From an uncultured Pseudomonadota bacterium (GTDB lineage: Bacteria; Pseudomonadota; Alphaproteobacteria; RF32; CAG-239), in NCBI GenBank assembly GCA_949300375.1, contig CASGEB010000013.1:1-41159 (forward strand): a stretch of 41,159 bases of DNA. The letters are read 5' to 3'. The notes beneath the pieces are model-generated. The model saw only the letters and a program-made list of their open reading frames with translations, was not told the origin of the DNA and did not search any database. Made by a program: the position numbers and the translations under genes. Position 1 is the stretch's first letter, and every line of letters starts with the position of its first letter. Positions 35,986-41,159 of this stretch are shown in pieces.

Positions 35986-36443
35986 TTAGAAATTTATAAC
36001 TTCCGATAAAGTATTTGCCACATCAAATACCGGTTTACTTGCTAAATGGGCATAATGTTTTACCATGGCTGTAGATTTATGTCCTAGCATTTGTGCGATT
36101 GCCGCTTCGCTATGTCCGTTTGTAATTGCAATACTTGCCGCAGTATGTCTTAAATCGTGAACTCTAAAATTTTTAATTTTGGCATTTCTTATAATAGTGT
36201 ACCAAGCCGTTTTAAAGTCAATATTATGTCCTTGGAAGTTTCGCCCCTTTATAATATATTCGGATAGCTGCTTCTTCTCTCGCTTCTTTGCAACTTAAAT
36301 TTTGAATATCGCCAAAAATATACCAGCGCTGAACGCCGCTTCTTCTTTAAGGCAAAGCCTTTTACCATATCGTCCCATATATAATAAATCTTATCTTTGA
36401 TTTCAGCATTGTTAATGACTGTCGAAGTTAAAACTGTCATCAT
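35986..36443 (-). pseudogene. tyrosine integrase, internally deleted copy 1
   Basis: The minus strand starts with GGAG before an ATG at 36443 and an integrase-type N-terminus (Y-I-W-D-D-M-V-K-G-F-A-L). After a frameshift it continues as arm-binding domain (R-W-Y-I-F-G-D-I-Q-N-L-S-C-K-E-A-R-E-E-A). A second shift leads straight into the end of the catalytic domain: H-D-L-R-H-T-A-A, L-G-H-K-S-T and the catalytic-tyrosine block H-Y-A-H, ending at 35986. The core-binding domain and the first catalytic arginine are gone. It lies next to a tRNA-Thr remnant, as expected for an island integrase. Confidence 0.85.
36064..36345. repeat. direct repeat with 40878-41159
   Basis: These 282 bases recur at 40878-41159, an offset of 4,814 bp. 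The right-hand two thirds differ at only a couple of positions, while the left end is more diverged. Both copies carry the same integrase deletion and frameshifts, so the duplication came after that damage. Confidence 0.9.
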
Positions 36444-36616
36444 TTTTCTCCATAAAATAAATTAACCTTTCGTTAATATTCTAGCTTATGGATGGACGGA
36501 AGCAAGCTCTTTTTTAGGAAAATCAATAACTTACATCTAAAAACAGCTTAATCCATAAAAATATATTGATAAATTTGATGTATCGTAACTTATTGAATTT
36601 TAATGATAATTTCGGG

Positions 36617-36645
36617 GTGGTGGCAACTCGGTGTGGTAGCTTGAG
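36617..36645 (+). promoter_or_regulatory. attachment-arm-like sites, left pair
   Basis: GTGGCAACTCG (36620-36630) and GTGGTAGCTTG (36633-36643), imperfect direct repeats. They are inverted relative to the pair at 36851-36872 and lie on the other side of the tRNA-Thr remnant, as integrase arm sites would. Confidence 0.55.
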
Positions 36646-36735
36646 TCATAAAAAAGAGAGTAAAAACGCTATTTTTGACTTGAACCTAACTGGCTGGATA
36701 AAAGAAAAACTCTTGAAACTCAAGAGCTTGGAAAC

Positions 36736-36792
36736 TGGTGCCGACAGAGAGACTCGAACTCCCGACCCACTGATTACAAATCGACTGCGCTT
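36736..36792 (-). tRNA. 3' remnant of tRNA-Thr(TGT), probable attachment core
   Basis: On the minus strand the 57 nt contain an anticodon loop with TGT, a variable region, a T arm (GGGAG-TTCGAGT-CTCTC), the acceptor 3' strand GTCGGCA and an encoded CCA. The 5' third of a tRNA is missing and the 5' side of the anticodon stem pairs imperfectly, so this is not a working tRNA. Integrases of this kind use tRNA 3' ends as crossover sites, and integration leaves such copies behind. Confidence 0.85.
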
Positions 36793-36846
36793 GTAAAATA
36801 TTATCTTTATAAATCAATGTGTTAATCTTAAAATTTTAGCGATTTT

Positions 36847-36905
36847 TTTGCCGAGCTACCACCGAGCTACCACGCTAAAACAAGCTACAACCAGCCTGTT
36901 ACAGG
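36847..36905. repeat. attachment-arm-like repeat, copy B
   Basis: On the minus strand GTGGTAGCTCG occurs twice in perfect tandem, followed by the 33-bp segment shared with copy A at 31337-31384. It lies about 58 bp from the tRNA-Thr remnant. The rest of 36,444-37,081 holds no gene: a short palindrome near 36461, a CTCTTGA/TCAAGAG hairpin near 36705 and AT-rich filler. Confidence 0.7.
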
Positions 36906-37037: not shown

Positions 37038-37065
37038 TTGAAATGGCATAAAATTTGCATATAAT
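37038..37065 (+). promoter_or_regulatory. promoter of the STAS-ATPase/STAS/PIN operon
   Basis: TTGAAA (37038-37043), a 16-base spacer and a perfect TATAAT (37060-37065). Transcription should start near 37072, leaving a leader of only about ten bases that begins at the GGAGG ribosome site. Confidence 0.65.
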
Positions 37066-37081
37066 GTGTTCGGAGGATGAT

Positions 37082-37888
37082 ATGCAACATAATTTTATAT
37101 TTAATCGTAGGCTTGTTCTTGAAAATAGGGATGCTTTTGAAAATATAGCTCTATTTGATGATCTTGTTTGTCAGTGCTTTTTGGAAAATATAGTTTTGGA
37201 TTTTAGCTCTGTTTCTTGGATTGAAGGTGAGTTGTGTTGCCTGTTAAGAGCTATTATGAATAAAGGAATGTTGCAAGGTAATTCTTTTTTTTATATTCCT
37301 CCAAGAAATAACAAAGTAGATGAAATTTTTAAAAAAAATGGTTTTATTTCTTTTGAAAAAGAAGATACAAATAACACAGTGGTAAAATGTAAGCAGTTTA
37401 GTAACTCGGATATTGTCTCTTTTATTGATTATATCTCTTTAGAGTTATTTGATACCAACAAGTTTCCTTATCCAACTGTGATTAAAGAAAATTGTAAGGA
37501 GTGTTTGGCTGAACTATTTGATAATGCTGCTTCTCACTCAGGAACTAGCAGTATTTTTACGTGTGGGCAATATTTTCCCAATAAACACGAATTAGCGTTT
37601 TGTATTACGGATATCGGTGTCGGAATAGTAAATAAAGTTCGAACTTATGATGATAAAATCAGTAAAAAAGATGCAATTAAATGGGCTTTTCAGAATAATA
37701 ATACGACAAAAAGCGATGTTGGTGGGTTAGGATTAAAGCTATTTCGTAATTTTGTGCAAAAAAATAATGGTTCAATAGTTGTATTTTCAGATAATATAGT
37801 ATATAAGGTTCTCGAAGATAGCACTTTTATGACAGAAAGACCGTTTAAGGGAACATCAATAATATTTAAATTAAATATAGATAAATAG
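37082..37888 (+). CDS. STAS-like + GHKL ATPase protein (partner-switch-type kinase)
   Basis: From the ATG at 37082, with GGAGG five bases upstream, the protein is 268 aa. The first 95 residues resemble a STAS domain (N-I-V-L-D-F-S-S-V-S-W-I ... I-F-K-K-N-G-F). Residues about 125-265 form a HATPase_c/GHKL domain: N-box E144-L-F-D-N-A-A-S-H-S, G1 box D177-I-G-V-G-I, G2 box G214-G-L-G-L and a final K-G-T-S-I-I-F. RsbW/SpoIIAB-like kinases use such a domain to phosphorylate STAS antagonists. There is no histidine-kinase dimerisation helix or sensor. It is followed 15 bp later by a DUF4325-like gene and then a PIN nuclease, so it probably controls them. Island-borne. Confidence 0.8.
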   Translation: MQHNFIFNRRLVLENRDAFENIALFDDLVCQCFLENIVLDFSSVSWIEGELCCLLRAIMNKGMLQGNSFFYIPPRNNKVDEIFKKNGFISFEKEDTNNTVVKCKQFSNSDIVSFIDYISLELFDTNKFPYPTVIKENCKECLAELFDNAASHSGTSSIFTCGQYFPNKHELAFCITDIGVGIVNKVRTYDDKISKKDAIKWAFQNNNTTKSDVGGLGLKLFRNFVQKNNGSIVVFSDNIVYKVLEDSTFMTERPFKGTSIIFKLNIDK

Positions 37889-37903
37889 GTAAAGGGTTGT
37901 GAT

Positions 37904-38227
37904 ATGGACAATATACCAACGGTAAAACTTGCTGAGATGTTTGATAAAAAATATGCGATATCATTAGAAGATGCAGAGAAGTTATATAGCATTTTAAAAA
38001 CATCGTTAGATGAGAAAAAAAAGGTAATTATTTCTTTTGAAGGAATAGAATTGCTTATTACGGCATTTTTAAATGCTTCTTTTGGAAAGTTATTTAAGGA
38101 TTATGCAGAAAAAGATATTGATTCTTATATTGAGGTGATAAATTTGCCTGAAGATAAAAATACCTTATTGCAATTAGTAAAAGAACGAGCAATTAGCTTT
38201 TATAGAAAAGAAAATGACAGTATATAA
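37904..38227 (+). CDS. DUF4325/STAS-like protein
   Basis: A 107-aa protein with the strand-helix pattern of the STAS-like DUF4325 family: K-K-V-I-I-S-F-E-G-I-E-L-L-I-T-A-F-L-N-A-S-F-G-K-L-F is the core block. Family members are typically next to GHKL ATPases. AAGGG lies seven bases before the ATG. It ends 14 bases inside the PIN gene. The most likely role is the small partner protein that the ATPase modifies or binds; the serine in the usual phosphorylation stretch (I-T-A-F) is a threonine here, which is compatible with phosphorylation. Confidence 0.7.
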   Translation: MDNIPTVKLAEMFDKKYAISLEDAEKLYSILKTSLDEKKKVIISFEGIELLITAFLNASFGKLFKDYAEKDIDSYIEVINLPEDKNTLLQLVKERAISFYRKENDSI

Positions 38228-38747
38228 TCTTTCAAATTTTCCCAAAGAGGATAATAAGTTTTTTATTGATACGAATGTATTACTTAATCTACATGGTCTC
38301 AATGGTGATATCAGTAAAGAAGAGGATTACTCTACTTTAATTGAAATGATTATTGAAAAAAAACAAAATGTTATAATGGATGTTGTAACACTTAGTGAAT
38401 TTGTTAATAGATATGCAAAATCTTTATTAAAAGAAAAAGGTGTTACTGATTTCAAAAAAGAGAGCCTCCGAGCCAATCCTGTTTATCCTAAAATTTTAAA
38501 AATGGTTGGAGAAGCAATTAAAGAAATCAAAAACACTTATCATATCCAATTCTGTTGTGATGGCTATGATTTTTTGAAAGAACTTCATACAATTAATATT
38601 GAAGAAATTTTAACTAAAGTAGATTTTAATGATTATGCAGTATATCACCTTTGTAAAACTCATAATTGTATTTTAGTAACTGATGATACTGATTTTTCTG
38701 TTTATAAAAATGATATAAATATTTTAACTGCAAATAGAAAAATGTAG
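38214..38747 (+). CDS. PIN-domain ribonuclease-like protein
   Basis: A 177-aa protein with the full acidic set of a PIN nuclease: D19 in F-I-D-T-N-V-L-L, E62 in L-S-E-F-V-N-R, D140 in F-N-D-Y-A-V-Y-H-L, and D157/D158/D160 in L-V-T-D-D-T-D-F. PIN domains cut RNA with Mg or Mn and are the toxins of VapBC systems. A helical insert of about 60 residues (70-130) is longer than in VapC. The ATG lies inside the upstream gene's last codons, so translation is coupled and amounts are linked. There is no VapB-like antitoxin; the STAS-like and ATPase proteins take that place. Confidence 0.82.
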   Translation: MTVYNLSNFPKEDNKFFIDTNVLLNLHGLNGDISKEEDYSTLIEMIIEKKQNVIMDVVTLSEFVNRYAKSLLKEKGVTDFKKESLRANPVYPKILKMVGEAIKEIKNTYHIQFCCDGYDFLKELHTINIEEILTKVDFNDYAVYHLCKTHNCILVTDDTDFSVYKNDINILTANRKM

Positions 38748-38750
38748 TTT

Positions 38751-39083
38751 TTAATTAAAATACCCCGTGAGGTTTGCCATTTGTAAATTAGGGGAATCCC
38801 ACGTGGAAAAGATTTCTCCTGATAAGCTATTGCCGTGAATAACGCGAACACTTAGGCCTAATAAGCTAAGTTGCGTATAAGTCATGCAGACACATAACTC
38901 ATCAATATCAGTGGCCTCAATATATAATTTGCCGCCCAGCTTTTCATATCCGCGATTTTGCAGACATTTAACCAATCCCAAAACCATAGCTCCAGATCCG
39001 CAGGTTGGCTCGGCAACGCGACAATATACGAGATTTACAGCATCTTTCTTGATATACTTATCTGCTCTTGAGTTTTTTCCCAC
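38751..39083 (-). pseudogene. C-terminal fragment of an N6-adenine DNA methylase
   Basis: The minus strand carries E-P-T-C-G-S-G-A-M (SAM-binding motif I), E-A-T-D-I-D-E-L-C and G-N-S-L-S-G-E-I-F, the last part of a type of SAM-dependent DNA methylase common on plasmids and phages. The target-recognition part and the N-terminus are missing. The catalytic N/D-P-P-Y motif is not visible. The fragment is cut off near 39083, exactly where a plus-strand isomerase fragment begins. Confidence 0.7.
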
Positions 39084-39896: not shown

Positions 39897-40502
39897 TTAG
39901 ATTCTCGCAACCATTTCCTCAAGCCAAGCCTCAAAATTAAATTGTTTTTCTCCAATTTCATTTTCAAATTCAAATGATTGTTTGGATAAAACTGTTTCTG
40001 CCGGCACTGTGGAATTGCGGAAAATAACCAATCTAATTTCCTCTATTTTGGAGTCAGGGTAACGTGTAGAGAATTGGTTGACGGCGCAAAAAATTGCACG
40101 AGCAGATTGCTCTTGAGTCAAATATCCAATAACACCAGTCCCGAGCTCCGGTATTGCGATTGTCTTCATTCCTTGTTTTTCGGCTTCTAACAGCACCATT
40201 AAAACAGCGTCAAAAATGACCTTAAACTGTGTTTCTTTTTGGCTGTTAACGGTTGAAACGTGAGCTAGCTTGATATTTTTTAAGCCGGATTCCGTAATCA
40301 TAACGTGTCCAAACGCAAGAGGTTCTTGTTGAACGGCATTATCATAAAGAGCCAAGCCTTTTTCCATACCGCAAGCAGAAATAGCCGCACCAACTCCGCC
40401 GTAAGAAGCACAATCAGTAAATTCAGGAATTACAATGCAATCAACTTTTTCTCCAGCAATATTACCGTTTTTTACGATAACATTAATACTTCCAATATTC
40501 AT
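39897..40502 (-). CDS. macro-domain (ADP-ribose-binding) protein
   Basis: A 201-aa protein. Residues about 1-150 form a macro domain: an initial strand with V-K-N-G-N-I, the glycine-rich Y-G-G-V-G-A-A-I loop, and I-P-E-L-G-T-G-V-I-G-Y, the phosphate-binding loop. The usual catalytic-loop asparagine pair (N-A-A-N) is replaced by I-P-E-F-T-D-C-A, which suggests binding or a different chemistry. A 50-residue C-terminal tail ends with W-L-E-E-M-V. No ribosome site precedes the ATG, only a T run. Macro proteins remove or read ADP-ribose and occur in NAD-linked defence and toxin modules. A broken copy of its 3' end lies at 31262. Confidence 0.85.
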   Translation of the reverse strand: MNIGSINVIVKNGNIAGEKVDCIVIPEFTDCASYGGVGAAISACGMEKGLALYDNAVQQEPLAFGHVMITESGLKNIKLAHVSTVNSQKETQFKVIFDAVLMVLLEAEKQGMKTIAIPELGTGVIGYLTQEQSARAIFCAVNQFSTRYPDSKIEEIRLVIFRNSTVPAETVLSKQSFEFENEIGEKQFNFEAWLEEMVARI

Positions 40503-40856: not shown

Positions 40857-41159
40857 AGCAGATAATTTGCAATTAATCATGGCCGTTGATTTATGTCCTA
40901 GCATTTTTGCGATTGCCGCTTCACTGTGTCCGTGTGATATCGCCATACTTGCCGCAGTATGTCTTAAATCGTGAACTCTGAAATTTTTAATTTTGGCATT
41001 TCTTATAATAGTGTACCAAGCCGTTTTAAAGTCAATATTATGTCCTTGGAAGTTTCGCCTCTTTATAATATATTCGGATAGCTGCTTCTTCTCTCGCTTC
41101 TTTGCAACTTAAATTTTGAATATCGCCAAAAATATACCAGCGCTGAACGCCGCTTCTTC
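40827..41159 (-). pseudogene. tyrosine integrase, internally deleted copy 2 (runs off the window)
   Basis: A second copy of the broken integrase, with the same deletion and frameshifts as copy 1. It matches copy 1 from 40878 to the window edge. To the left the match stops right after L-G-H-K-S-T-A-M, so the catalytic-tyrosine block is lost and the frame instead ends within the terminator at 40827. It cannot be active as a recombinase. Confidence 0.85.

Follow-up and report, generated by a model that had tools for sequence, protein, structure and literature searches.

The closest described relative of the locus analyzed here is vapKSC, an anti-phage system from Escherichia sp. E4736 (Chambers et al, EMBO J, 9 June 2026, PMC13373217), in which VapC is toxic, loses its toxicity on mutation of D28, and is neutralized by VapS. 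The structure of the VapS–VapC complex (PDB 9Z7O, whose VapS construct presumably bears an 18-residue tag, given 134 rather than 116 residues) belongs to the same work, and the C-terminal region of Escherichia VapS (residues 94–116) reaches the VapC active site; deletion of 94–116, which took out this entire 23-residue region, cost VapS its neutralizing ability, and the S48E substitution abolishes both neutralization and co-purification with VapC (PMC13373217). VapK phosphorylates VapS, freeing VapC, and is thought to be activated by single-stranded DNA, as CapK is (a proposal rather than a direct demonstration, Escherichia included). The operon gives approximately 2-log protection against phage Bas42, which is lost with VapC D28A, VapS S48A, or VapK F54A, and 289 instances were reported from diverse bacteria, 36% of them within 10 kb of other immune genes (PMC13373217).

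The window (the whole stretch of alphaproteobacterial DNA that we analyzed, 41,159 nucleotides) carries three genes that form one operon on the forward strand. The gene vapK (37082..37888, 268 aa, ATG start) encodes an N-terminal STAS domain followed by a GHKL Ser/Thr-kinase domain; vapS (37904..38227, 107 aa) encodes a DUF4325/STAS protein, the putative antitoxin, with a predicted phosphorylation site at Thr53 and a C-terminal region of 9 residues; vapC (38214..38747, 177 aa) encodes a PIN-domain RNase, the putative toxin, with the acids D19, E62, D140, and D158. A gap of 15 bp separates vapK from vapS, and vapS overlaps vapC by 14 bp; the gene positions, gap, and overlap given by an earlier note on this DNA all proved exact on recheck, and its domain assignments (STAS plus GHKL ATPase, DUF4325-like STAS protein, PIN nuclease) were recovered by Pfam and by the kinase model (HATPase_c in the kinase, E = 1.9e-6; DUF4325/PF14213 in the STAS protein, E = 1.4e-15; PIN/PF01850, E = 1.6e-10). 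Upstream lie a GGAGG ribosome-binding site for vapK (37073..37077, +, read from the sequence) and a sigma-70-like promoter, TTGAAA-16-TATAAT (37038..37065, +). The note had called this promoter strong, which holds in that it matches the consensus at 11 of 12 positions and is correctly placed; it does not hold as a statistical statement, as the AT-rich stretch contains 8 promoter-like sites against a shuffle mean of 12.3 (no excess), and the promoter is by itself not significant because shuffles give as many such sites.

Comparison with 9Z7O places the operon within the published system. The STAS family profile matches the Escherichia VapS chain of that entry at 4.6e-27 and the PIN family profile its VapC chain at 2.7e-17; window VapS alone matches at 4e-8, and window VapC reaches 5e-8 (23% identity) as a single pairwise comparison with Escherichia VapC. 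At the residue level, Thr53 of window VapS aligns with the critical Ser48, and Asp19 of window VapC with Asp28. We therefore regard it as very probable that this is a vapKSC system, a divergent member of an anti-phage kind that is already published rather than a new one, and the earlier statement that no system of this composition had been described is superseded by the EMBO J report and 9Z7O. PADLOC 2023 holds no model for the kinase–STAS–PIN trio, and weak matches to DrmA and PDC were read as shared folds only. The Escherichia operon was not found in a plasmid collection, nor in an E. coli collection queried with the DNA of a distant relative.

An AF2 model of VapK (pLDDT 93.9) resolves a STAS domain (residues 1–91), which matches the anti-sigma antagonists 4HYL (Z 10.5) and TM1442 (Z 10.3), and a GHKL domain (residues 97–268), for which the top structural match is the Ser/Thr kinase SpoIIAB (Z 14.8, 24% identity), with histidine kinases behind. 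Across 80 kinases, the N-box residues E144, N148, and H152 and the ATP-binding-motif glycines G179, G215, and G217 are invariant, and D177 is kept in 74; together with the SpoIIAB match, these invariant residues define the active site as that of an anti-sigma-type kinase. For the aromatic residue linked to ssDNA binding in Escherichia VapK (F54), window W46 is a candidate position, with Trp or Phe in 74 of the 80. Neither Pfam nor the secondary structure of the model gives an N-terminal HTH on window VapK, the model starting directly with the STAS domain. One kinase ORF elsewhere (L109:3503-4990) has a long N-terminal extension ahead of the STAS–GHKL part.

In VapS, the position of Thr53, directly ahead of an AFLN motif, is occupied by Thr in 54 and by Ser in 26 of 80 STAS proteins. 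The VapS model (pLDDT 89.9) gives RsbV, RsbS, and SpoIIAA as weaker matches (Z 5.9–6.7, below a decisive level by themselves); 9Z7O is absent from its Foldseek/VIA-align matches, whose library extends to releases of 8 April 2026 and might lack that entry. Pfam and model secondary structure likewise reveal no DNA-binding domain on the 107 residues. Past the equivalent of Escherichia residue 93, window VapS retains only 9 residues (FYRKENDSI) against 15–25 in the 79 other STAS proteins, with a predicted helix that extends to residue 105, and VapS of G312, a genome of the same family, has about 5 residues in this region (sequence read by eye); since two genomes of one family share the short tail, sequencing error is unlikely to account for it. 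Judged from these lengths (9 residues against 23), the mode of VapC inhibition by window VapS may differ from that in Escherichia. It is possible, and we put it forward only tentatively, that the window and G312 belong to a VapKSC branch with short tails, whose VapS would dispense with the C-terminal helix on which the Escherichia antitoxin depends and would inhibit VapC by other means, perhaps through contacts of the STAS domain alone or within a complex that also contains VapK. If such a branch is real, STAS proteins would have two ways of restraining an RNase. The short-tailed VapS itself offers a natural experiment for locating the inhibitory part of the antitoxin.

The four acids of the active PIN site (D19, E62, D140, and D158) are the only invariant columns in 80 PIN proteins, in keeping with the earlier reading that the PIN protein has all its acidic residues; a lack of conservation among its relatives, which would have told against the earlier proposal, is not seen. 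PIN diverges fastest of the three proteins: used as a lone query against plasmids and phages the PIN protein returned no match, an alignment of four PIN proteins scanned against viral sequences found no relative, and the STAS and kinase proteins were for this reason chosen as queries. An initial search with the STAS protein found relatives, each accompanied by kinase and PIN genes, in G312 and on a Deinococcus gobiensis plasmid, and further copies lie on a fecal phage scaffold and viral contigs, where PIN is downstream in all of the first nine viral loci (frameshifted in L012).

With the STAS-protein alignment as sole query against ~85,000 species genomes we obtained 285 relatives, of which the best 80 were kept. 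Kinase, STAS, and PIN genes are complete in the same order and on the same strand in 74 of these best 80 of 285 loci (some with a broken kinase or PIN gene), so that the possibility that the genes are rarely together, which would have undone the earlier proposal, is not borne out. The six seemingly incomplete loci comprise three with PIN remnants (L048, L105, and L108), one cut by a contig edge (L083), and two in which PIN is absent (L097 and L099). Within 700 kb scanned around the kept loci, all 77 PIN-profile ORFs adjoin the STAS gene and none lies away from it, and 40 of 66 intact, non-duplicate genome operons show an overlap between the STAS and PIN genes. The three-gene combination is far beyond chance.

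Several loci depart from the trio. In the flavobacterial pairs L097:4090-5306 and L099:4052-5270, kinase and STAS genes are followed by neither a PIN gene nor a remnant of one, and in L012:5140-5699, L084:5345-5793, L048, L105, and L108 PIN is frameshifted or a remnant while the STAS gene is open, a pattern that fits the expectation for a costly toxin. In Pseudomonadota (L117, L120, L123, L132, L135, L137, and L139), what comes after the kinase–DUF4325 pair is often a small protein (147–219 aa, with a single N-terminally placed hydrophobic segment) rather than PIN, and the STAS protein retains a Ser ahead of FLEE; the small protein may be a further effector on the same switch. A viral contig (L028:1087-3632) encodes first a kinase, then a 408-aa protein that neither Pfam nor PADLOC recognizes, and then a STAS protein, the middle gene being possibly another effector swap. 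Four loci (L116, L118, L119, and L127) encode single proteins of ~335–350 aa resembling HTH–HATPase–DUF4325 fusions (Pfam check on L116 only). Kinase–STAS pairs beside small membrane proteins in the wider DUF4325 family hint at a switch rewired to more effectors.

The best 80 of 285 loci come, by record title, from Bacteroidota, Chlorobiota, Planctomycetota, Verrucomicrobiota, Bacillota, Desulfobacterota, Spirochaetota, and others, and four MAGs labeled archaeal carry the operon (again by record title; MAG contigs can be misbinned). Phage copies have CI-like repressor, RecT, Erf, and terminase genes nearby, while the flanking genes of chromosomal copies include type I restriction–modification and other PADLOC families (a qualitative observation without a background rate); in L035, L050, and L060 the operon sits directly upstream of an hsdR-like gene (sequence read by eye). 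The VapKSC switch is thus widespread: record titles place it in more than a dozen phyla and apparently in archaea as well, and its carriers include phages, a plasmid, and islands, often with restriction systems alongside. This distribution fits a second line of defense triggered by DNA damage.

In the window, the operon occupies a low-GC stretch that resembles an old integration island. Two 287-nt repeats, both encoding C-terminal tyrosine-integrase remnants, flank it: that at 36059..36345 (−) is a 95% direct repeat of 40873-41159 (repeat search and translation), and the contig ends within the latter copy, from which the assembly break is probably repeat-caused. Next to the operon, a decayed tRNA-Thr(TGT) gene copy with its flanks (36590..36875, −), 76% identical to the intact tRNA-Thr region on contig C27 of the same genome, is probably an old attachment site. 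A fragment with a methyltransferase-like EPTCGSG motif (38751-39083, −), recognized by no Pfam model, abuts vapC, and a Macro-domain protein (39897-40502, −; PF01661, 3.8e-8) lies in the same island. A search of six other genomes from the genus did not find window VapS, and across the order the STAS protein is patchy (2 of 153 genomes).

These surroundings raise the question of whether the operon is itself a decayed, non-functional copy left behind in the island, as the integrase, tRNA-Thr, and methyltransferase-like sequences nearby are remnants and the VapS tail is mostly lost. We judge this highly improbable: the three open frames, the active-site residues, the ribosome site, and the promoter are intact, and G312 likewise has a short VapS within an intact operon. 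That the operon instead encodes a CapK/CapS-type regulator, with kinase and STAS protein controlling transcription of an adjacent immune operon and PIN as the regulated cargo, draws on the same kinase–STAS logic and on the location of CapKS pairs next to immune operons (PMC13373217); however, both CapK (N-terminal) and CapS (winged) carry an HTH, whereas the window kinase starts with STAS and its 107-aa partner has no DNA-binding domain, and the window genes overlap and match the VapS–VapC complex, which makes this reading very improbable. Least probable of all, to the point of being barely credible, is a classical sigma-factor partner switch (RsbW/RsbV, SpoIIAB/SpoIIAA) next to which PIN fell by accident; the kinase domain of VapK is indeed closest to SpoIIAB, but the operon holds no sigma factor gene and PIN is the third gene in 74 of the best 80 of 285 loci.

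Taking the operon as vapKSC, a mode of action can be proposed in which VapC, a PIN RNase, would act as a growth-stopping toxin that is bound and held inactive by the STAS domain of VapS. DNA damage or phage infection would activate VapK, in which a STAS domain is joined to a Ser/Thr kinase of the anti-sigma-factor type, probably via single-stranded DNA; active VapK would then phosphorylate VapS at Thr53, the VapS–VapC complex would dissociate, and the released VapC would cleave RNA and halt the infected cell. In support, the window shows the gene order, the folds, the conserved residues (of kinase, phospho-acceptor, and nuclease), and the homology to 9Z7O, and the linked genes recur widely in mobile DNA and next to restriction systems; from these we infer the toxicity of window VapC, its trigger, its RNA target, and phage protection. 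The earlier note was right to propose a GHKL–STAS switch that controls a PIN RNase, with a toxin–antitoxin or defense role in a mobile setting; its suggestion of ATP level as the trigger gives way to the single-stranded DNA (DNA damage or phage infection) to which the published work points.

Set against known systems, the operon resembles VapBC in pairing a PIN RNase toxin with a protein antitoxin encoded immediately upstream; VapB, however, has a DNA-binding domain and often a metal-displacing arginine, whereas the window antitoxin would be a STAS protein under a kinase (a VapB-type antitoxin with a DNA-binding fold was set aside here, the partner being DUF4325/STAS). The DefensePredictor systems DS-3 and DS-5 (PMC13092281) also use a PIN nuclease in anti-phage defense, but DS-3 is a single protein and DS-5 combines PIN with a DUF5830/AcrIF4-like protein, a kinase–STAS pair being described for neither. 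SpoIIAB/SpoIIAA and RsbW/RsbV share the kinase fold, the N-box E-x3-N-x3-H, and the STAS phospho-acceptor, with a sigma factor as their target in place of an RNase. CapK is likewise a GHKL–STAS kinase that phosphorylates its STAS partner on Ser in response to single-stranded DNA (PMC13373217), whereas CapS is a DNA-binding repressor, and the HTH domains of both are absent from the window. VapKSC of Escherichia differs in its 23-residue VapS C-terminal region and in its host, the window proteins being of low identity (as given above for VapC) and encoded in an alphaproteobacterial island; what it has in common with the window is the set of three genes, their order, and their shared strand, together with a STAS–GHKL kinase without HTH, a STAS antitoxin whose position 48 in Escherichia (window 53) is Ser/Thr, and a PIN toxin with matching acids.
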